From Bacteroidota bacterium (GTDB lineage: Bacteria > Bacteroidota > Rhodothermia > Balneolales > HLUCCA01): 64,000 bases of DNA. The stretch is from assembly GCA_020832235.1 (NCBI GenBank), contig JAFIEZ010000010.1:186001-250000 (forward strand), read 5' to 3'. A program made the translations under genes and the position numbers. Each line of letters begins with the position of its first letter. The stretch's first letter is position 1. Below the pieces are notes generated by a model. It saw only the letters and a list, made by a program, of their open reading frames with translations. It did not search any database and had not been told where the DNA came from. Below are positions 52,249 through 64,000 of this stretch, in pieces.

Positions 52249-55200
52249 TTGAAACTTTCCGATGTTAATATCGCGATTCAGCTGCTGGCAGCAATCGTTG
52301 TACTAATAAGTACAACGGCAGTACACGCAACGGAGCCGGTCAAAGGCAATTTTTTGGTTACCAATTACAGTCCCAGCGAATATGGCGCTGGAACACAGAA
52401 CTGGGAGATGGTTCAAGATGACGCCGGCCGGATCTACATTGCCAATCGGGACGGTGTACTGGTTTTTGACGGTATTAACTGGAACTTAATTGAACTTCCC
52501 ATTTCAACCCCTTTGCGATCGCTGGCAATCGACTCCCGGAATCGGGTTTATATTGGCGGCGTCGGACAGTTTGGATACCTCCAGCCCGATTCAGCAGGAG
52601 TTCTGAAGTTTGTTTCCCTGTCGGATCAATTTGAGGAAGTGATAAGCGATGTATGGGAAACGCATCTCACCGATGACGGGGTCGTTTTTGCAACCCGCAG
52701 TTCCTTGTTCCGTTGCCTAGCACATGATTGCGAGCAAATTACGCCGGGCTACCAGATGGCCAGATCGTTTTCTATAAACGGATCGCTACTGGTATCGGTA
52801 CCAGGAAGGGGCATCGCTCAACTACGCGGTAGCGCTCTGGAAATAGTTATACCGGAGGATGTATACCATGGTGGTCTTGTCTTCAAGCTCATTGAGTCCG
52901 ACGAATTTATTACCGATGACATCCGCCTTGGGCAAGGGCTCTATCTTTTCAAACGAAACGGAGATATCTACTATTACGAGTATACAACCTCCAGGATGTA
53001 TGTTTCAGACGAGTTTTTGCCGACTTCAGCTCGTATACCTCCCGAAACGTATCGAATTAATCGACTCAGAAACGGAGACCTGGCCTTTGCAACCATCAGC
53101 AGTGGAATTCACGTACTTGACTACCAGATGCAGGCTCGCTACCACATTAATCGTCAAAGCGGTTTAAGAGTAGATATGGCGCTGAACGTCTTTGAAGACC
53201 GTGACGGATCGTTATGGGCATTGCTCAACAATGGAATATCCCGAATTGATAAACCAGACTATGTCCGCTATTGGAACGAAGATTCGGGCATCGTTGGAAC
53301 GGTTCTGCACATCGGAAAATTTGGGAACAGTTTAGCGGTAAGTACCAGCAGCGGTGTTTTCATAGTTGATTACGACAATGCAAACATTATCCCGGAGCGA
53401 ATTAACCCCGTTGCCTCACAGATGTGGCAATCTAAGGAAATTAGCGTTGCAGGTCGTACCTACCTTCTTGTTGCCGGGAATAATCAGCTCTTCTATTGGG
53501 ATGGGCAGGAGCACCGTCTGCTCAAAGAAACGGCTGCGCGAAGTTTGTACCAGAGCAGAACAAAGCCCGGAAGAATCTTCATAGGCTATTTACAGGGTTG
53601 GGGATACATCGACCTGGTACCCGACGCTTCCGGCAATCTGCGCATACAAAACGATGTGGTGTTTACCGATCCGCCTTTTGAAATCAGAGGTATATTTGAA
53701 GACGAACAAGGATCAATATGGATGCAGGCCCGCTTTCATGGAATATTTAAAGCTAACGTAACGGCCGATCTCAACTCCGATCCGGATATACAAGAATTTA
53801 CGTACGATTGGGCCGATGTGTCATCAGAGACCATTGTAATGGATATGCACATGCTGGCCGATTCGGTTGTTTTTGCAGGTCCAACAGGCATGTTGAAGCT
53901 GAATCATGAAGAAAAACGATTTACAAGCGGAAACCCACTGTATGATGATGTCCTGCGAGATCGAATTATAATGGATGTGGCCATTATTGATGCAGACCAG
54001 ATTCTGGTATTAATGCATCAGGGGTACGCAATACTTCGCAGAGCCGCCGATGGCATCTGGGAGATTCAATCTGAGTCTGGCAGGGATGTCCCCGACGCCC
54101 CCATGTACGGACTCGCACTAACAGAGGAGTACATCTGGACCGGTGGCGCTGAGGGTCTTTTTCGCTATAATCGCAGTCATAGACCAAATCATTTCACGGA
54201 TTTTAATGCGGTAATAACTTCAGTAGTACTTGGTCAGGATAGTCTGATATACGGAGGACATCATGCAGACGAATTTTTACTGCAACTTGCATACGACAGG
54301 AGTCAGATAAGTATCAATTTTGGAGCGGCACGTTTTTCAAGGTTCAGAAACCTGTATTTCGAAAGCAAACTGGAAGGTTTTGATCAGACGTGGACGCCGC
54401 TGACAACAGAATCGCGTCGTATTTACACAAACCTACCCGATGGAAGCTATCGATTCAGAGTGAGGGCTACGGATCTCTATGGTATAACCTCACAGGAAGA
54501 TTATCTGTTGATACAGGTCGCTACACCCTGGTTTAAGTCCTGGTGGGCCTATTTGATGTATACATTCATTATGGCCGGTACAATATTCGGACTGGTAAAA
54601 CTCCGAACCCAATCAGTAGAGCGAAAAAATAAACAACTCGAGCTGATTGTATCGAAACGTACAGCATCACTTCAGGTAGAGAAAAGAAGACTTGAAATCA
54701 TCAATGAGGACTTGCGTACCCACGACGAACATCGTGAAAAGTTTCTGAGTGTTGTTGCACACGATTTGAGAAATCCGCTCATGATTATCAAGAGCAGCGC
54801 TGAACTGGTAGAAGAAGAAGGAATGAGCCGGGAAGAGATGCTGGAATTGACCGGTTTCATCAGGGATGCGGCAGATCGTATGCAAAAAATTATTGAAGTC
54901 CTGCTCGAAGACCGCGCCAAAAAGATTCGTTCATTCGTTGATGAAGGCTCACGTGTTAATATATCGGGTCTTATAGATCAGCTGGTCAAGGAATTTACCC
55001 AGTGGTCAGAGCGAAAGGCTATTTCTATTGATACCTCCGGCGTTCCAGAAGACTTGTATATGCATTCGGATGCAGCTGTTGCGGGTGTTATTGTGTCGAA
55101 CCTGATGAGTAACGCCATAAAATACTCGAATCGTGGAAAGACGATTTGGGTGAAAGCAGCGGCTGAGCCAGGTTGTATGGTCGTAACGGTAGAGGATGAA

Positions 55201-55416
55201 GGCCTGGGTATGACCGCGAACGACTTGAAAGAAGTTGGGAAGCCATTCAAGAAACTATCGGCCCGGCCGACCGATGGGGAGCCGAGTTCTGGACTTGGTT
55301 TACACATTGTTAAAGATCTTATCACGGACCTTGGTGGGAGCATGAATGTATATAGTGATGGACCGGGTAAAGGGACTCGCTTCGTGGTTACATTTCCGGT
55401 CGATACTTCAGTTTAG
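52249..55416 (+). CDS. Propeller-type sensor histidine kinase (Y_Y_Y), orphan
   Basis: A membrane sensor kinase of 1,055 residues starting with TTG. A signal peptide (IQLLAAIVVLISTTAVHA) leads into a beta-propeller sensor (about 40-680) with two-component regulator propeller repeats such as FEDRDGSLWALLNNGISRID and FEDEQGSIWMQARFHGIFK. A Y_Y_Y domain follows (about 680-755; LEGFDQTWTPLTTESR, LPDGSYRFRVRA). One transmembrane helix (about 764-785), then HisKA with phospho-His H838 (VVAHDLRNPL), and HATPase motifs NLMSNAIKYSN, DEGLGMT and GLGLHIV. It lacks the receiver and AraC domains of Bacteroides hybrid systems, and no response regulator is in the window. Confidence 0.93.
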   Translation: MKLSDVNIAIQLLAAIVVLISTTAVHATEPVKGNFLVTNYSPSEYGAGTQNWEMVQDDAGRIYIANRDGVLVFDGINWNLIELPISTPLRSLAIDSRNRVYIGGVGQFGYLQPDSAGVLKFVSLSDQFEEVISDVWETHLTDDGVVFATRSSLFRCLAHDCEQITPGYQMARSFSINGSLLVSVPGRGIAQLRGSALEIVIPEDVYHGGLVFKLIESDEFITDDIRLGQGLYLFKRNGDIYYYEYTTSRMYVSDEFLPTSARIPPETYRINRLRNGDLAFATISSGIHVLDYQMQARYHINRQSGLRVDMALNVFEDRDGSLWALLNNGISRIDKPDYVRYWNEDSGIVGTVLHIGKFGNSLAVSTSSGVFIVDYDNANIIPERINPVASQMWQSKEISVAGRTYLLVAGNNQLFYWDGQEHRLLKETAARSLYQSRTKPGRIFIGYLQGWGYIDLVPDASGNLRIQNDVVFTDPPFEIRGIFEDEQGSIWMQARFHGIFKANVTADLNSDPDIQEFTYDWADVSSETIVMDMHMLADSVVFAGPTGMLKLNHEEKRFTSGNPLYDDVLRDRIIMDVAIIDADQILVLMHQGYAILRRAADGIWEIQSESGRDVPDAPMYGLALTEEYIWTGGAEGLFRYNRSHRPNHFTDFNAVITSVVLGQDSLIYGGHHADEFLLQLAYDRSQISINFGAARFSRFRNLYFESKLEGFDQTWTPLTTESRRIYTNLPDGSYRFRVRATDLYGITSQEDYLLIQVATPWFKSWWAYLMYTFIMAGTIFGLVKLRTQSVERKNKQLELIVSKRTASLQVEKRRLEIINEDLRTHDEHREKFLSVVAHDLRNPLMIIKSSAELVEEEGMSREEMLELTGFIRDAADRMQKIIEVLLEDRAKKIRSFVDEGSRVNISGLIDQLVKEFTQWSERKAISIDTSGVPEDLYMHSDAAVAGVIVSNLMSNAIKYSNRGKTIWVKAAAEPGCMVVTVEDEGLGMTANDLKEVGKPFKKLSARPTDGEPSSGLGLHIVKDLITDLGGSMNVYSDGPGKGTRFVVTFPVDTSV

Positions 55417-56074: not shown

Positions 56075-56569
56075 ATGAAAACCCGAATCACTCAAATAAT
56101 AAAAGTCATGGCCACTTTAGCAGTCTTTTCAACACTTACCGCCGACATTCTTGCACAAGGATCATCCGTAGCTTCCATGACCATCCGTGCAACTGTGGTG
56201 GAATCAGCTTCTATTCAAGCTGTAAATGATCTTCGATTTACCGAAACATCATTCAACGACAACCAATTTATTTCGCAAACAGACGGGTTCGCTGAATTTG
56301 TTATTACCGGAACCAGAGATGCTGAAATCAGTGTAACTGTAAGCAGTCAGTCAATGTTGTCTGAGGAAGCAAGCAGTGTCGTATTTACGCCTTCATTGGT
56401 ATCTGGCAACGGATTGCTTTCCCAGCATCAAACAATCCAGCTGAAATCCGACTCTCAAAGCGGACAGTCCAGAGCATCTGTCTGGGTAGAAGGAAAAATT
56501 GAAAGTCCTACACAAGCCGAAGCAAATGAGTATATAGGACAATACCTGATTGACGCTGTGTATAACTAA
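56075..56569 (+). CDS. Small secreted DUF4402-like (pilin/spore-coat-U-like) protein
   Basis: A 164-residue secreted protein. The signal peptide ends near TADILAQ. The mature part is all-beta in appearance, Ser/Thr-rich and without cysteine: SMTIRATVVESASIQAVNDLRF, ITGTRDAEISVTVSS, VWVEGKIESPTQAEAN and the ending GQYLIDAVYN, which resemble DUF4402 and fimbrial/SCPU-type domains. It may be a surface or pilin-like subunit. It has its own strong promoter with an abutting dyad, a good ribosome site and a clean terminator, suggesting a highly expressed monocistronic gene. It precedes two larger surface proteins. The family call is by resemblance. Confidence 0.72.
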   Translation: MKTRITQIIKVMATLAVFSTLTADILAQGSSVASMTIRATVVESASIQAVNDLRFTETSFNDNQFISQTDGFAEFVITGTRDAEISVTVSSQSMLSEEASSVVFTPSLVSGNGLLSQHQTIQLKSDSQSGQSRASVWVEGKIESPTQAEANEYIGQYLIDAVYN

Positions 56570-56860: not shown

Positions 56861-56900
56861 TGTAATCATTATAAGTTTTCTTATCCGATTTTAATCAAAA

Positions 56901-57788
56901 ATATCGATTCTCTCGGTTTTAATTCTCGCCATTTTATGGCCGCAGGTAGTTTATGCACAGGCGAATTTAACAATATCAGGTAATTATTCAACGCCTGGCG
57001 ACACGCTCCAGGTTGGTACGCTCAGTATCGCCAACGGTACCAACTCATTCAACGGATCAACCCTTGTTGTGAATAACGACTTTAGTATGACAGGAAACCG
57101 TACCCTGAACTGTAATAGTGGTACAATGATCTTTGAAGGAAACTTCCAGGTTGGTGGAAGTGCGACATTTAATATGGGGGGTTGTACGATAAAATTCAAT
57201 GGAAACTTGGCTCGATTCGGTAATGCAAATTCGTTCGACCCTGGTACAAGTACGGTGATTTTTGGTGGAAACACTGAAATCGAATGGAATTCGGGAAGCG
57301 ATATTCAATTCTATAACGTCATTGTGGAGGATGGTGCTTCTGTAACTGCAGATGTTGATGTTTTTGTGTTAAATGACATGACTGTTGAGGGTGACGGATC
57401 ATATTCAAATATTAATAACACTTCACTTAATGTTGTAGGGCAGGTAACAGGAGACCCTCAAATATTTGGTGTCGCACCTTTTATTACAAATATTTCTATT
57501 CTGAATAGCAATTCAATTGAGGTTTTTTTTAGTAGGAAGTTAAACCAAGGTCCTGCCGAAAATATTGGCAATTACAAGGTAAGGTCAACACTAGCCGGGG
57601 CTTTTACAGATCCGGGAGTTGTAGATCCATCCCCATCCATAACTTCAGCCGTCTGGAATCCGACCGACTCTAACAGAGTTGTGCTAAGTCTTGGATTTAC
57701 TATAGTTGCAGATACCAATTACTATCTGTGGATACAGAATGTCACCATCGAGGACAGTTTTACCCAAAAAATTACGGTAATTAAATAG
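56901..57788 (+). CDS. Secreted surface protein, start codon unresolved
   Basis: A ~295-residue protein whose first ordinary start is the GTG at 57069. However, the same frame stays open upstream to a stop at 56892 and encodes a good signal peptide there (KISILSVLILAILWPQVVYAQ). No ATG, GTG or TTG occurs in this part; the candidates are ATA (56901) or ATT (56907). The mature part has beta-helix-like repeats (FEGNFQVGGSATFNM, IFGGNTEIEWNSG), then VIVEDGASVTADVDVFVLND and an Ig-like end (YYLWIQNVTIED). It aligns by eye with residues ~310-498 of the next protein. Either a rare start codon or a start-codon mutation. Confidence 0.7.
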   Translation: MSILSVLILAILWPQVVYAQANLTISGNYSTPGDTLQVGTLSIANGTNSFNGSTLVVNNDFSMTGNRTLNCNSGTMIFEGNFQVGGSATFNMGGCTIKFNGNLARFGNANSFDPGTSTVIFGGNTEIEWNSGSDIQFYNVIVEDGASVTADVDVFVLNDMTVEGDGSYSNINNTSLNVVGQVTGDPQIFGVAPFITNISILNSNSIEVFFSRKLNQGPAENIGNYKVRSTLAGAFTDPGVVDPSPSITSAVWNPTDSNRVVLSLGFTIVADTNYYLWIQNVTIEDSFTQKITVIK

Positions 57789-57916: not shown

Positions 57917-60900
57917 ATGCAACATCGACCTGTTCTACATACAACCCTTCTGAAGCTAGCTTCGGTTTTGTTCCTGCTTATGCTCTCGCAGGTGGGATTG
58001 TTATATGGCCAAACTACTACGTGGAACGGAAGCGCCAGCTCCGACTGGTTTAATCCATCAAATTGGAGCGACGGCGTACCAGGCCCTGCCACCACAGCCC
58101 AGATTAATTCCATACCCGCCGCTAATAGTCAGCCCCTGCTCTCATCAAGCACCACAATTGGTGGCCTAAGTATGGGGTCGAATAACCAATCGCTGACCTT
58201 AGGTCCTGACATCACGCTCACTATTGCCGGGAACCTCACTACCGGCAACTCGGCCATGTTAAGCGGGACCGACGTTACGTTACATGTTGGCGGGAACATG
58301 ACCCTCGGCAATGATGTAAACATTGCCACATCTGCTAATCCAGGTTCTTTATCCGTGGGTGGCAATCTATCCGTGGCAAACGGAAAAACATTTAACGCAG
58401 ATTTTGAATCCATTACGATTGACGGAACACTCACCCTCAACGGACAGATTAACTTGTTTTCTGCCGATCTGGAAACCGAAACTATTACGATCAATAACAA
58501 TGGTGTTCTGAACATTCAAAACGGCAGTGTCACCGTGAATAACACCTCATCAAACAGCGGCAATATTCTGGTTGGTGACGGAGTGTTCACCATTTTGGGG
58601 AACTTCACTCACACGGCAAGCGGGTATCTTGAGGTGCAAACGGGTACTGTGAACGTCGGTCACCCGGGGCCTCCCGCGGTTAGCGGCAACTTTGTTCAGG
58701 ATGGAGGGTCTGAATTCATACTCAATCAAGGATCGTTCAATGTGTTTGGGAATTCCACCTTTTCCGGGGGAGGAGACTTTTTTGCCAACGAAGGTTCTAT
58801 TCTTTTCGAAGGTAACGTCGCCTTCAACGGTGGGAGTGATTTCGATGCGGGAACCAGTACGGTTACTCTGAGCGGTGATGTTACACTATCCACAAACTCT
58901 AATCAGAGCGCCACCTTTTTCAACTTAATAGTTGACGATGGAACAAATGTGACAGCGAATATCAATGTCACCGTTCAAAATAACATGACGGTTGATCCTA
59001 CCGGTAACTACAACCATGTAAATCAAACTACCCTCAACGTATTTGGTCAGGTCATTGGTGAGCCCGAAATCAATGTCAACAGACCGTACGTGGTAGCCTT
59101 AGAGGTCGTCAGTAGCACCCGACTGCGCATCTTTTTCAATACCGAATTTGATGGAAACCCGATTAGTCTGATACCCGGTACAGGTACCAACGCCGCCGAA
59201 CGACTTACCAATTATGAAGTGGTTGAAAATGGTGCAGAGCCAGCCACAGCGATATTGGTATCGCCAAACATCGTTGAAATCGAATTCAATTCTGCAACAT
59301 TTACCATACAAGATAATACGCAGTACACCCTATGGATTAAAAACCTCCGTATTCAGGAGAATAACACAACCAGCGGGCAAATTAGTGCGAATCACTTTAA
59401 GTTTTTTGGTGGCACAAGCTTCACCGTGCCTCAACCCCTAAGTCTGGACTACTACCCCGGCGGGCTCGATAATACCAACCTGCAGCTTTGGTTTGATGTT
59501 GCCGATGCTGCTACACGTTTCTCAAATCCCTCGGGAACCGCACTGGCAACCAATGGTCAGCGCATAGCCCGTCTCAACGACAAGTCCCCGGCTGGTCGTC
59601 ATTCCATTCAGTCGACCACCAACCTGCGACCAGAGCTGGATCTCACCGGAGCATTCGGAGGCCAACCTTCTCTGATTTTTAACAACGCCGAGTTTCTGCC
59701 CTTCGATGGAAGTTTCCTTGCAGGAACCGAATACACCCTTGGCTTTTTTGTCGACCGTGCTAGCACAAGCAGCCGAAATATCTATCTCGGCGGCACCGGC
59801 ACCGGACAAAACAGCAATCTCCACCTATTCTGGAGCACAACAAATCAGCTTGAGTTCCACCAATGGGACAATAACTTCGGTTTTCCGGTTCCCGCTTTCA
59901 CCGGGTCGCTCGAGGGTGAAATACACACCTTCGATCTGAATACATCTCTGTCAAACAATGCTCGTAGCATGTGGCGAAACGGGGCACTGCTTGGCAGCGG
60001 GGGGTCCAACGCCACCTTGGTGTCCTATAACGGGGCTGCACTGGGCGCCTATCAGAACAACGAGTTTTTCAGCGGTCGTATCGGCGAGGTCTACATGTTC
60101 AATCGTCGACTCAACAACACCGAGCGCATCATTCTGGAGAACTATACCGCGGCCAAATGGGGAACACTTCTGGCCACGGCGTCTCGGTATTTCACCGCAC
60201 CGACCGGATATGGACATCAACTGGTAGGTATTGGTCGTACTTCATCCACCGACTTGGTTGGTCAAACCGCATTTACATCCGGTGGACTCGGGCTGCAGGC
60301 GTTAACAACGGAGTTTCTGAATACCGACGGGAACTACCTGCTCGCAGCGCACAACAACGCAACGGGACTCAACGCCACCACGATCTTTACCACGACAGCA
60401 CTGTACGAACGCCCAAATAGAGTTTGGTATGCCGACATCACCAAAATCGCGTCGAACGGTCAGCTCACCGTCTCATTTGATCTGGACATCCTTAATGTAA
60501 CGCCCACTACATCTACCGGCCAATACGCACTGCTATTTAACGCCAACGACGATGATTTCAGCGTATTTGAAAACAACAACGTACTCTCATCCAGTGCTTC
60601 GGTTGTCGGCAATGTCGTGAGCTTCACCATTGACGCCGATCAGCTCAGCGACGGATACCTCACCCTCGGATTCTTCATCACGCCGGCCTCTGCCGATCCC
60701 GATGAAACCACCATTACAGCACAGCCAACTGTTATAGAAGCCGATGGTGCATCCACATCGGTAATTACCGTTCAGGCACGCTTTCAGAACGGTGTGGCGC
60801 TTTCCGTCGGAGGCGATACGGTAACCCTTACAAGCACGGCCGGAACCCTGGGAGCTGTGAACGATAATGGCGATGGAACCTACACCGCCGTACTGACTTC

Positions 60901-63900
60901 GGCCAACACAACCTCCACCGCTACCGTAACCGGCACAATCAACGGAGATCCGATTAGTGATCAGGCAACCATTATTTTCTCGGCCGGCGCGCCAGCTCCC
61001 GAAGAAACGCTCATTACCGCCGCCGACGCGCAACTTGCAGCCAATGGCAGCGATCAAACCACCATCACAGTACAGCTGCGCGATAATCTGGGCGCTAACC
61101 TCACCACCGGCGGCGCCAACGTGGTACTATCCACCACCAGCGGAACACTCAGCGCCGTAACCGACAACAACGACGGGACCTACACGGCCACGCTCACTTC
61201 TTCCACAACCATTGCAACCGCGACGATTTCGGCCACCGTGAATGGGAGTCCGGCCACGGCCACGGCTCAGGTGCAGTTCACGGCCGGGCCCATTGACCTC
61301 GCTACCTCCACCATAGGAGCAAGTCCCTCGCAGATTACCGCCAATGGAACATCCCAAAGCTTAATTGTACTCGAACTGCGCGACGCCAATGGAAATCTCG
61401 TAGGCACAGGCGGCGCAACGGTTGTACTCTCTACCACCGCCGGAAGTCTTTCCTCCGTGAATGACCTGGGCAACGGTTTGTACAACGCTACCTTAACCTC
61501 GGCCACTACACCCGGAACCGCCACCATCTCCGCAACGGTAAACGGCAATCCCGTTGCCGCAACCACTCAGGTCGAATTTGTTGATTTCGACATCCTTCGG
61601 TACTATCCCGGCGGACTGGCCAACGGCAACCTCCAGATTTGGTTCGATGCAGCCGATGATGCCTATATTTTCAGCGACGTTGCCGGAACAACACCTGCAG
61701 GCTTCGGCGACCCTGTGGCCTTGCTGCGCGATAAATCGCCCAATGCCCGTCACGCCGAGCAACCCGTTACGGCCAGCCGACCTATTCGCAGCAACACAGG
61801 AGCCTTCGGAGATCGACCTTCTCTGGTCTTCAACAACGCCGAGTTCCTGCCCTTCGACGGTACCTTCCTGGCCGGCACCGACTACACCCTCACCTTTATG
61901 GTCGACCGCTCCTTCGGTGGCTCCGGCCGAAATATGATTTTTGGAGGGACTACCACCTCAGCCAGTGAAAACCTCCACCTATTCTGGAATGGCAGCACGA
62001 CCCTGGAACACCACCATTGGGGCAACAACTACACGATGACCGTCCCGGCCTACACCGGCAGTTTAACTGGGGAAATTCTCACCGTCAATTTAAATACCGC
62101 CATTACAGCGCCCTTCCGCAGAACCTGGCGAAACGGAACCCAGATTGGTTCAGGCGGCACAAATGCCCAGCTCACATCCATGAATGGAGCCGCCATCGGA
62201 CGCTTCCAGACCAGCACCTTCCTTCGTGGACGCATTGGAGAGGTCATCATGCACGACAGGGCGCTGAATACCACCGAGTTTATCATACTCCAGAACTACA
62301 TTTCAGCGCGATGGGGTGTAGGCATTGATGCTACCATCGATTTCTATACCTCCCCGGATGCGGACTTCTTCCACCAACTGGTCGGGATAGGCAGAACCAC
62401 CCCCTCCGATAATGTCATGCAAACGGCATTCACCTCTGGCGGACTCGCCTTCAACTCCAACGGGTTCAGCTTCCTAACGGCGAGTCAGCGCTACCTCATG
62501 GCGGCCCATAATAACCTCACAGGACTCTCATCCGGTCCGGTAGTCGTGGGCGAATCGACCTTCGAGCGATGGGAACGAGCCTGGTACCTTGAAAAAACAG
62601 CCACTACCAGCGGGGGAGAAGTAGCCCTGGAGTTCGACTTCTTCGACTATGACCTTCCCTTACCCCAGCAAGATGAAACCTTTGCACTGATTTTTCATCC
62701 CAATAATCCGTCCTTTGCCTCTGCCGGCGTGCAGACCATCGCGGCAACGGTGAGCTTCCCATCGGTAAGTCGGGTTCGCTTTGTGGTGGATGCCGACGAT
62801 CTTACCAACGGCTTTTATACCCTGGGCAGACGCACCGGAACGGTAACGTATTTCAGCAGAACTTCGGGTGACTTCAACGATGCTGAAACCTGGTCGGTCA
62901 CCGGTCATGACGGTCCGGCACACAGCGCCGCTCCCGGTCCCAACAGCACCGTAATTATTGGCGGGGATGCCGGCAGTGACCACACCGTTACCCTTACGGC
63001 CAATTTCGCCACCCAGTCGGACGGGAACATCACCGTAACCGACACCGGCGACGGAGCGGGGATACTGCTCACCGGCACCCATCTGCTCACCGGAAGCGGC
63101 ACCTTCACCCTGGATGATGGCGGTGCATTGGGCATCGGCTCACCCGACGGCATTACCACCTCAGCGGCCAGTGGCAACATCCGCACCACCACCCGCAGTT
63201 TCAGCGCCGACGCCATCTATATCTATAACGGAAACAGCGCCCAGAATACCGGCAGCGGACTCCCCGGTGAAATCCGAGAGTTGCGCGTGAACAACGCCTC
63301 GGGCGTAACCCTTACCAACAACCTGCGCGTAACCTCCGAAACCCTGCTGGAGGCAGGCAATCTGACCGTCGGTTCCGACCGGGCCTTCGTATCCGAAACC
63401 ATCCAATACAACGGCGGACTCCTTCGCGCGCTGCGCCAGCTTTGGGTGCCGCCAACCGACACACCCGGCGGATGGCGACTGTTTTCCTCGCCCATCGATA
63501 CCGACTACGCCAATTTGTTCTCCGAACTGCTCACCCAGGGCTTCCCCGGCAGCGATTTAGGGGTATCATCCAGCCTGATTCCGAATGTACTTTGGTACGA
63601 AGAATCGTTTGAAGGCACCGACAATCAGCGCTGGAGAGCACCAACAAGCGCCTCTCAAAGCCTGGAACCCGGTCGCGGTATCTTCGCGTACGTCTTTGGC
63701 GACATCTCCACCGACAGCCGGTATGGTCAGCAGGCCGTTACTCTGGAAGTCATCGGACAGGAAAACGCCGGCGACATTAGTCTCCCCGTTACCTATACGC
63801 CCGAGGGAGACCAGGGATGGAATCTGGTAGGCAATCCGTTTTTATCGACCATTTTCTGGAATGATCCCGACGGATGGAACAAAGCCAACATCGGCAACTC

Positions 63901-64000
63901 CATCTACGTATGGGACCAGCAGTCGAACGGCGGGAATGGCGCTTTTCTGGAATGGAATGGTGTGACCGGATGGGGGAATGGTTACATCAAACCGTTTCAG
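57917..64000 (+). CDS. Giant multidomain surface protein, runs off the right edge
   Basis: An uninterrupted frame of 2,028 codons from the ATG at 57917 to the window end, without a stop; the gene is therefore partial. Order: signal peptide (1-32); TWN...NPSNWSDGVP entry; beta-helix-like repeats (to ~330); block shared with the upstream protein (~310-498) ending in an Ig-like fold; LamG/lectin-like module (512-921); three invasin-type Ig repeats (930-1221) with DGTY motifs; second lectin-like module (1229-1639); a second beta-helix start (TSGDFNDAETWS, ~1650) to ~1830; then GWRLFSSPID and GWNLVGNPFLS stretches. Such endings usually precede a type IX sorting domain in Bacteroidota, which would lie outside. 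Probably an adhesin or matrix protein; inferred. Confidence 0.9.
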   Translation, partial: MQHRPVLHTTLLKLASVLFLLMLSQVGLLYGQTTTWNGSASSDWFNPSNWSDGVPGPATTAQINSIPAANSQPLLSSSTTIGGLSMGSNNQSLTLGPDITLTIAGNLTTGNSAMLSGTDVTLHVGGNMTLGNDVNIATSANPGSLSVGGNLSVANGKTFNADFESITIDGTLTLNGQINLFSADLETETITINNNGVLNIQNGSVTVNNTSSNSGNILVGDGVFTILGNFTHTASGYLEVQTGTVNVGHPGPPAVSGNFVQDGGSEFILNQGSFNVFGNSTFSGGGDFFANEGSILFEGNVAFNGGSDFDAGTSTVTLSGDVTLSTNSNQSATFFNLIVDDGTNVTANINVTVQNNMTVDPTGNYNHVNQTTLNVFGQVIGEPEINVNRPYVVALEVVSSTRLRIFFNTEFDGNPISLIPGTGTNAAERLTNYEVVENGAEPATAILVSPNIVEIEFNSATFTIQDNTQYTLWIKNLRIQENNTTSGQISANHFKFFGGTSFTVPQPLSLDYYPGGLDNTNLQLWFDVADAATRFSNPSGTALATNGQRIARLNDKSPAGRHSIQSTTNLRPELDLTGAFGGQPSLIFNNAEFLPFDGSFLAGTEYTLGFFVDRASTSSRNIYLGGTGTGQNSNLHLFWSTTNQLEFHQWDNNFGFPVPAFTGSLEGEIHTFDLNTSLSNNARSMWRNGALLGSGGSNATLVSYNGAALGAYQNNEFFSGRIGEVYMFNRRLNNTERIILENYTAAKWGTLLATASRYFTAPTGYGHQLVGIGRTSSTDLVGQTAFTSGGLGLQALTTEFLNTDGNYLLAAHNNATGLNATTIFTTTALYERPNRVWYADITKIASNGQLTVSFDLDILNVTPTTSTGQYALLFNANDDDFSVFENNNVLSSSASVVGNVVSFTIDADQLSDGYLTLGFFITPASADPDETTITAQPTVIEADGASTSVITVQARFQNGVALSVGGDTVTLTSTAGTLGAVNDNGDGTYTAVLTSANTTSTATVTGTINGDPISDQATIIFSAGAPAPEETLITAADAQLAANGSDQTTITVQLRDNLGANLTTGGANVVLSTTSGTLSAVTDNNDGTYTATLTSSTTIATATISATVNGSPATATAQVQFTAGPIDLATSTIGASPSQITANGTSQSLIVLELRDANGNLVGTGGATVVLSTTAGSLSSVNDLGNGLYNATLTSATTPGTATISATVNGNPVAATTQVEFVDFDILRYYPGGLANGNLQIWFDAADDAYIFSDVAGTTPAGFGDPVALLRDKSPNARHAEQPVTASRPIRSNTGAFGDRPSLVFNNAEFLPFDGTFLAGTDYTLTFMVDRSFGGSGRNMIFGGTTTSASENLHLFWNGSTTLEHHHWGNNYTMTVPAYTGSLTGEILTVNLNTAITAPFRRTWRNGTQIGSGGTNAQLTSMNGAAIGRFQTSTFLRGRIGEVIMHDRALNTTEFIILQNYISARWGVGIDATIDFYTSPDADFFHQLVGIGRTTPSDNVMQTAFTSGGLAFNSNGFSFLTASQRYLMAAHNNLTGLSSGPVVVGESTFERWERAWYLEKTATTSGGEVALEFDFFDYDLPLPQQDETFALIFHPNNPSFASAGVQTIAATVSFPSVSRVRFVVDADDLTNGFYTLGRRTGTVTYFSRTSGDFNDAETWSVTGHDGPAHSAAPGPNSTVIIGGDAGSDHTVTLTANFATQSDGNITVTDTGDGAGILLTGTHLLTGSGTFTLDDGGALGIGSPDGITTSAASGNIRTTTRSFSADAIYIYNGNSAQNTGSGLPGEIRELRVNNASGVTLTNNLRVTSETLLEAGNLTVGSDRAFVSETIQYNGGLLRALRQLWVPPTDTPGGWRLFSSPIDTDYANLFSELLTQGFPGSDLGVSSSLIPNVLWYEESFEGTDNQRWRAPTSASQSLEPGRGIFAYVFGDISTDSRYGQQAVTLEVIGQENAGDISLPVTYTPEGDQGWNLVGNPFLSTIFWNDPDGWNKANIGNSIYVWDQQSNGGNGAFLEWNGVTGWGNGYIKPFQ
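59450..60679 (+). repeat. Lectin-like module, copy 1 (residues 512-921)
   Basis: Starts YYPGGLDNTNLQLWFD and continues with DKSPAGRHS, QPSLIFNNAEFLPFDGSF, FSGRIGEVYMFNRRLNNTER, HQLVGIGRTSSTD, QTAFTSGGL, ending SDGYLTLGFFI. The central ~200 residues look like a LamG/concanavalin-type fold (RIGEV, MFNRRLNNTE). Copy 2 at 61601-62833 repeats every one of these landmarks in the same order and is one residue longer, so it is a true internal duplication. Confidence 0.85.
60704..61579 (+). repeat. Three tandem invasin-type Ig repeats
   Basis: Repeats begin at about 60704, 61004 and 61295 (periods of 300 and 291 bases). Each has the same landmarks: ITA..., a strand with TVQ/VLEL, STAG/STTSG/STTAG, then DNGDGTYTA, DNNDGTYTA or DLGNGLYNA, and ATISATVNG-type endings. 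This is the bacterial Ig-like (Big_1/invasin) pattern. They sit between the two lectin-like modules as a rigid spacer would. Confidence 0.85.
61601..62833 (+). repeat. Lectin-like module, copy 2 (residues 1229-1639)
   Basis: Second copy of the ~410-residue module: YYPGGLANGNLQIWFDAADD, DKSPNARHA, RPSLVFNNAEFLPFDGTF, LRGRIGEVIMHDRALNTTEF, HQLVGIGRTTPSD, QTAFTSGGL and the ending NGFYTLGRR. Both copies share DNA-level similarity in the FNNAEFLPFDG segment, where 61831-61860 and 59682-59711 are nearly identical by eye. Confidence 0.85.

Follow-up and report, generated by a model that had tools for sequence, protein, structure and literature searches.

A giant, probably type IX-secreted surface protein of Balneolales with a duplicated LamG-containing module and three invasin-type immunoglobulin repeats

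We have analyzed a stretch of 64,000 nucleotides (the window) from contig JAFIEZ010000010.1 of a Bacteroidota bacterium of the order Balneolales. From position 57917 on the forward strand, a reading frame stays open for 2,028 codons up to the end of the window at position 64000. An earlier annotation made from the letters alone (the sequence-only reading) took its product for a surface protein in which two lectin-like modules (A1 and A2) flank three invasin-type immunoglobulin (Ig) repeats (B1 to B3) in a mirrored A-B-B-B-A plan, an architecture that it did not recognize. What is this giant protein, how was its gene put together, and what might it do? The reading that we favor, with a probability of about 0.58, is that of a secreted, surface-displayed, modular adhesin-like protein, exported by the type IX secretion system (T9SS) and, we infer, binding carbohydrate.

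The frame does leave the window. Followed along contig C9 it meets a stop after 2,338 codons, giving a protein of 2,338 amino acids (aa), and the extension contains the C-terminal sorting domain for which it was checked. A congeneric metagenome-assembled genome, HLUCCA01, encodes an ortholog of 2,340 aa with the same domain order, including three B repeats. Over an alignment of 2,332 positions the two giants share 70% identity, and each segment contains 0-2 gap columns. The ratio of nonsynonymous to synonymous divergence (dN/dS) is ~0.13 overall, a rough value since dS is near saturation and 4 of 14 segments are saturated; it suggests that the giant is under purifying selection.

The two modules were compared directly. 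By revised boundaries A1 spans residues 510-920 and A2 residues 1226-1639 (411 and 414 residues), and they are 48.4% identical over 409 aligned residues. They are thus homologous, which disposes of the possibility raised beforehand that the modules might prove unrelated. Their third codon positions are 34% identical, near random, and the duplication is therefore old. A tree of 38 modules places A1 and A2 in sister clades (support 97/85), each of which pairs the giant's own copy with that of HLUCCA01 (100/100 and 100/99); next to them lies the single module of genome G035 (100/99). The conclusion from these sequence comparisons is that the whole module of ~410 residues has been duplicated inside the gene, and that this preceded the divergence of the two congeneric genomes. 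The proposed duplication of the lectin module is therefore upheld. The mirror symmetry is rejected: the copies lie head-to-tail and each is orthologous across the two species, so that the palindrome is one of order and not a structural mirror.

Nor is the module lectin-like throughout; what stands is a pair of homologous repeats, each comprising a LamG domain and a second, unnamed domain. The LamG-like part takes up ~245 residues, the first ~60% of each module, and the last ~165 form the second domain, here called GIGR. In A1 the LamG-like half (residues ~510-755; 59444-60181, forward strand, as for all features below) matches PF13385 (LamG_3) at 28.6-30.1 bits against a cut-off of 27.6, and our LG profile at E=2e-100; the corresponding half of A2 (residues ~1226-1472; 61592-62332) matches the latter at E=7e-103. 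The GIGR halves are found at residues ~756-920 (60182-60676), recognized by profile and model, and ~1473-1639 (62333-62833; GI profile E=1e-70).

What is the nature of the GIGR half? In the AlphaFold model of the module it has block means of the predicted local distance difference test (pLDDT) of 56-88 (model residues 261-411). Structure comparison aligned it with the ZU5 domain of ankyrin (Z 7.8, root-mean-square deviation (rmsd) 3.8, 129 aligned) and with GAIN domains of adhesion G-protein-coupled receptors (CD97, Z 7.2; CELSR1, Z 7.1; BAI2 and BAI3, Z 6.6). All of these lie below Z 8, under the trust level of the tool, and the predicted ZU5/GAIN-like fold is therefore only a lead. When 21 members were compared with Pfam there was no convincing match and none to ZU5 or GAIN, the best being DUF7675 (E=0.044, in 4 members). 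Among PDB sequences neither the profile of module A (best E 0.15) nor that of the GIGR half (best E 0.39) detected a relative, and Foldseek returned nothing at E<=1e-3 for the module model; the better alignments came from the separate structure comparison. GIGR would thus be a widespread domain without a Pfam match, which follows LamG in T9SS proteins of Bacteroidota.

Between the modules lie three Ig repeats of Big_1/Invasin_D3 type, B1 (residues 928-1024; 60698-60988), B2 (1028-1124; 60998-61288) and B3 (1128-1224; 61298-61588), as had been proposed. They pass the Pfam gathering score, with three Invasin_D3 stretches at E=4.1e-68, and residues 932-1221 match the sequence of the invasin structure 1cwv at E=1.1e-15. 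Between the two giants the repeats are 75, 66 and 66% identical at the same position and 39-56% across positions, indicating from sequence that they are orthologous position by position. Identities to homologues with a single B do not single out an ancestral repeat among B1-B3.

The N-terminal flank begins with a putative signal peptide (residues 1-32; 57917-58012), a hydrophobic stretch read by eye that is the segment least conserved in the HLUCCA01 ortholog (16% of 31). The N-terminal part was folded by AlphaFold2 from a five-row alignment, with a mean pLDDT of 75.5. It is predicted to form a right-handed beta-helix (residues ~33-375; 58013-59041; block means mostly 80-95 over model residues 71-330), resembling pertactin (Z 20.2, rmsd 3.6, 315 aligned) and the HK620 tailspike (Z ~15-16), and then an Ig domain of S-layer type (residues ~386-506; 59072-59434) that resembles SbsB (Z 8.0, rmsd 3.0, 90 aligned) and SbsC (Z 7.9) in a region of pLDDT ~37-71. 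Foldseek gave no match to this model at E<=1e-3; the matches came from the separate structure comparison. Of the beta-helices proposed for both outer sides, the model thus supports the N-terminal one. On the other side, residues 1640-1875 (62834-63541) form a beta-rich region, possibly another beta-helix, which is shared with a neighboring T9SS protein of HLUCCA01; residues 1640-1830, and the wider stretch 1640-2050, have no Pfam match up to E=3.

How might such a protein reach the surface? After the beta-rich region comes a piece recognized by profile that we call the GWRL platform (residues 1876-2070; from 63542, continuing beyond 64000), then an unnamed region to residue ~2250 and a sorting tail (~2260-2334; C9:250694-250915). 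Both PF18962 (E=1.1e-6, 29.2 of 27 bits) and TIGR04183 (E=1.7e-7, 31.1 of 23 bits) identify the last 75 residues as a T9SS type A sorting domain; an NCBIfam search of the 2,028 residues within the window gave no match. The genome has 74 sorting-tail matches at E<=0.01, 71 of them over the cut-off, and encodes SprA, the T9SS component that was sought (SprA_N, E=1.7e-99). The proposed surface destination is supported by these observations, and the giant is probably exported to the cell surface by the T9SS. Such sorting domains are described as signals for export across the outer membrane, with cargo that can be anchored via A-lipopolysaccharide (A-LPS) in Porphyromonas (PMC4804311, PMC5445135). 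The platform appears to be a widespread domain without a Pfam match that precedes the sorting tail: at E<=1e-15 its profile matches 90 of the 128 Balneolales genomes searched, and three of its four matches in the giant's genome are in the three LamG-bearing frames.

A clue to how the gene was built comes from HLUCCA01, where the gene just upstream of the giant encodes a T9SS protein of 1,409 aa. The N part of the giant aligns with this neighbor up to its residue 698 (36% over 457 positions, score 481) and the C part from its residue 706 (49% over 677 positions, score 1607); five shuffle controls each gave scores of 75-98 and 58-72, respectively. The A-B-B-B-A block therefore sits where the neighbor has ~7 residues, and so the gene resembles a standard T9SS scaffold with a cassette in it. 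This would mean that T9SS surface proteins are rebuilt from a fixed scaffold (beta-helix, S-layer-type Ig domain, pre-sorting platform and sorting tail) and an exchangeable lectin-Ig cassette. In the window, the place upstream of the giant holds a shrunken remnant of this paralogue (56895-57785), 45% identical to the 1,409-aa protein over 233 aa. It retains a signal-peptide-like stretch, with no in-frame ATG, GTG or TTG before it, a piece of beta-helix, the Ig domain and, from the sorting tail, the last ~10 residues, which the deletion left in frame.

Is this architecture confined to the genus? We searched 394 genomes of the phylum, scoring up to 4 candidates per genome for the whole module, 9 for GIGR and 12 for Invasin_D3, and the counts are lower bounds. 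At E<=1e-5 the whole-module profile matched 86 genomes, in many of them through the LamG half alone; the GIGR half by itself was found in 31 and Invasin_D3 in 112. Six of the 31 GIGR genomes also contain Invasin_D3, and both were found in one frame only in G000 and G001. Among the 394 genomes, Big_1 together with the module twice was found only in the giant's genome and HLUCCA01. A simpler order, one B and then one A, is encoded by a second gene of HLUCCA01 (L030) and, outside the sample, in G034 (L026) and G035 (L028); two other members of the family (G002, G003) have no module at E<=1e-3.

Frames with two or more modules are common, and in one of them (L069) the LamG half occurs as many as eight times. 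The Bacteroidota LamG+GIGR proteins of L064:3834-9494, L065, L066, L067, L071 and L072 have two or more homologous modules per frame, with GIGR halves ~21-29% identical to A1; unlike the giant, they had no Big_1 in profile searches. In the first four a Calx-beta domain lies between two modules, and these four and L071, the five scanned, end in a T9SS tail. The succession of lectin module, Ig-like spacer and lectin module is thus a recurring theme of which the giant is a variant, and uniqueness of the plan is rejected. As to the architecture that had not been recognized, its general form recurs with Calx-beta, and it is the combination of Big_1 with a doubled module that was found in only two genomes of the 394. 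In the giant, parts that are mostly widespread are arranged in a new way. No report of a LamG domain combined with type IX secretion was found in the open-access literature. At L072 (genome G372) three neighboring genes each carry three or four tandem LamG+GIGR modules.

Comparison with known systems places the giant between several classes. Like SprB and RemA of Flavobacterium it is a very large protein, probably delivered to the surface by the T9SS. A title cited in PMC5445135 calls RemA a mobile cell-surface lectin. The likeness to SprB and RemA is one of description, and no result here suggests a role in gliding. With the invasin/intimin family (Yersinia invasin, 1cwv) it shares Big_1/Invasin_D3 repeats as a rigid spacer, the match being confined to these repeats. 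Members of that adhesin family have an N-terminal LysM and an outer-membrane barrel; neither is among the seven Pfam families found in the giant up to E=1, its N-terminus is a predicted beta-helix, and its export signal is a T9SS tail in place of the intimin-type barrel. Balneolaceae giants of ~2,370-2,680 aa (two at L086, and L087, L088 and L090) have LamG, one Big_1, the GWRL platform and a T9SS tail in the same gene island, but their LamG lacks the GIGR half and their single Big_1 lies C-terminal to the LamG copies, not between them.

In the reading that we favor, the signal peptide would carry the giant to the periplasm, and the type A sorting domain would direct it to the T9SS translocon, as the domain and the presence of SprA suggest. 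Outside the cell the N-terminal beta-helix would form a rod, and the two LamG-plus-beta-sandwich modules, about three Ig domains apart, could bind a repeated ligand. The standard T9SS scaffold would carry the cassette, within which module A has duplicated. Most likely this ligand would be a polysaccharide, either from a phototrophic mat or from the matrix of the cell itself. Since HLUCCA01 is a member of a unicyanobacterial mat consortium (PMC5468372), polysaccharide from cyanobacteria or from the matrix is a plausible target. Another member of the order, Cyclonatronum strain Omega, lives as a satellite of filamentous cyanobacteria (PMC6243061).

Several observations weigh against this reading. 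PF13385 scores 21.2-24.6 bits on A2, below the cut-off, and the LamG half is poorly predicted by AlphaFold (block-mean pLDDT 24-76, mostly <60), so that the LamG assignment rests on the Pfam match. A few alignments span this low-confidence model (PilC and toxin binding domains among them, Z 3.9-4.4), and no protein of the LamG/concanavalin family is prominent among them. No ligand-binding site was identified in the giant; adhesion is what we infer. LamG folds also mediate protein contacts. Lastly, the middle of the giant aligns with the 1,409-aa neighbor with a score of 147 over 641 positions (29%), indicating a diffuse beta-rich similarity throughout the protein, and the cassette interpretation rests on the clean ends.

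The giant belongs to a conserved gene island, which extends from position 56075 of the window to its end and on contig C9 to ~258000 (L005, L006; also L025 and L092-L096). Upstream lies a putative DUF4402 protein (56075-56569; PF14352 E=4.9e-4, below cut-off; 65% identical to its HLUCCA01 counterpart). Downstream on the same strand follow three DUF4402-like genes, a fourth, a PapD-like gene and a gene for a usher-like protein of 1,136 aa that carries SPOR, and the order is the same in HLUCCA01 at 51-78% identity. T9SS giants precede DUF4402, PapD-like and usher-like genes in five of six further genomes (G006, G027, G068, G076 and G041); the exception, G016, has none of the island genes on its contig. 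Of 128 genomes of the order, 73 match the usher-like profile at E<=1e-30, and at least 35 of these 73, in three families, have a platform-bearing giant upstream, on the same strand and within 35 kb. This is a lower bound, the count having taken in 76 usher-like places and the best 104 of the listed platform places, and many misses are on short contigs. Among the 21 plus-strand usher-like places whose contig reaches 25 kb or more upstream, a hand count found a giant at 17. Linkage by chance would be 1.5% per genome, an approximate figure based on three platform genes in each genome and without a shuffled control.

Could the giant be something other than an adhesin? Such linkage, and the S-layer-type Ig domain, would suit a structural protein that builds or decorates a surface layer, or a fiber of the DUF4402 and chaperone/usher-like genes, with its LamG modules making protein-protein contacts. 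We consider this unlikely, though to be kept in mind, as neighboring genes need not interact and the names chaperone and usher are weakly supported (PapD_N below cut-off at E=0.025; no usher family in six homologues, with TcfC in one of the six at E=0.14; no NCBIfam match for the PapD-like or usher-like genes). An enzyme that degrades polysaccharide at the cell surface, with a catalytic beta-helix and lectin modules for binding, would account for the phage tailspike glycosidases among the structure matches, and LamG-like domains often accompany glycoside hydrolases. The best match of the beta-helix is however to pertactin, an adhesin, and the Pfam scan that revealed the Ig repeats and sorting tail had only Ig/Filamin types and that tail over cut-off. 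No enzyme family was among them, nor in the C-terminal flank, and we regard an enzymatic role as improbable. An error of frame or assembly deserves mention since repeated modules can collapse or join, and in another genome (G316) a contig ends inside Big_1 repeats. The independently assembled HLUCCA01 carries the same protein, in architecture and length, with conserved flanking genes. There is therefore no join or frameshift within 57917-64000, as had been feared, and an artefact, to which we attach almost no weight, is rejected.

A broader interpretation of the island is speculative, and we think it rather doubtful. The island might be a composite adhesive apparatus with two routes through the outer membrane, in which divergent chaperone/usher-like genes build a DUF4402 fiber that one to three T9SS giants cap, coat or anchor. 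The protein of the window could then be a version particular to its lineage, with the target determined by its bivalent lectin cassette. If so, two routes of export that are as a rule investigated separately would become linked across an order of environmental bacteria, two members of which live with cyanobacteria. No paper on DUF4402 was found in the open-access literature, and among the open-access matches listed for chaperone-usher and type IX secretion in the Bacteroid literature none is on Balneolota by title.

Upstream of the island the window also encodes a long sensor histidine kinase (52249-55416), with its kinase domain at 788-1053. The HLUCCA01 gene that occupies the corresponding position with respect to the island is 63% identical to it over 466 aa.

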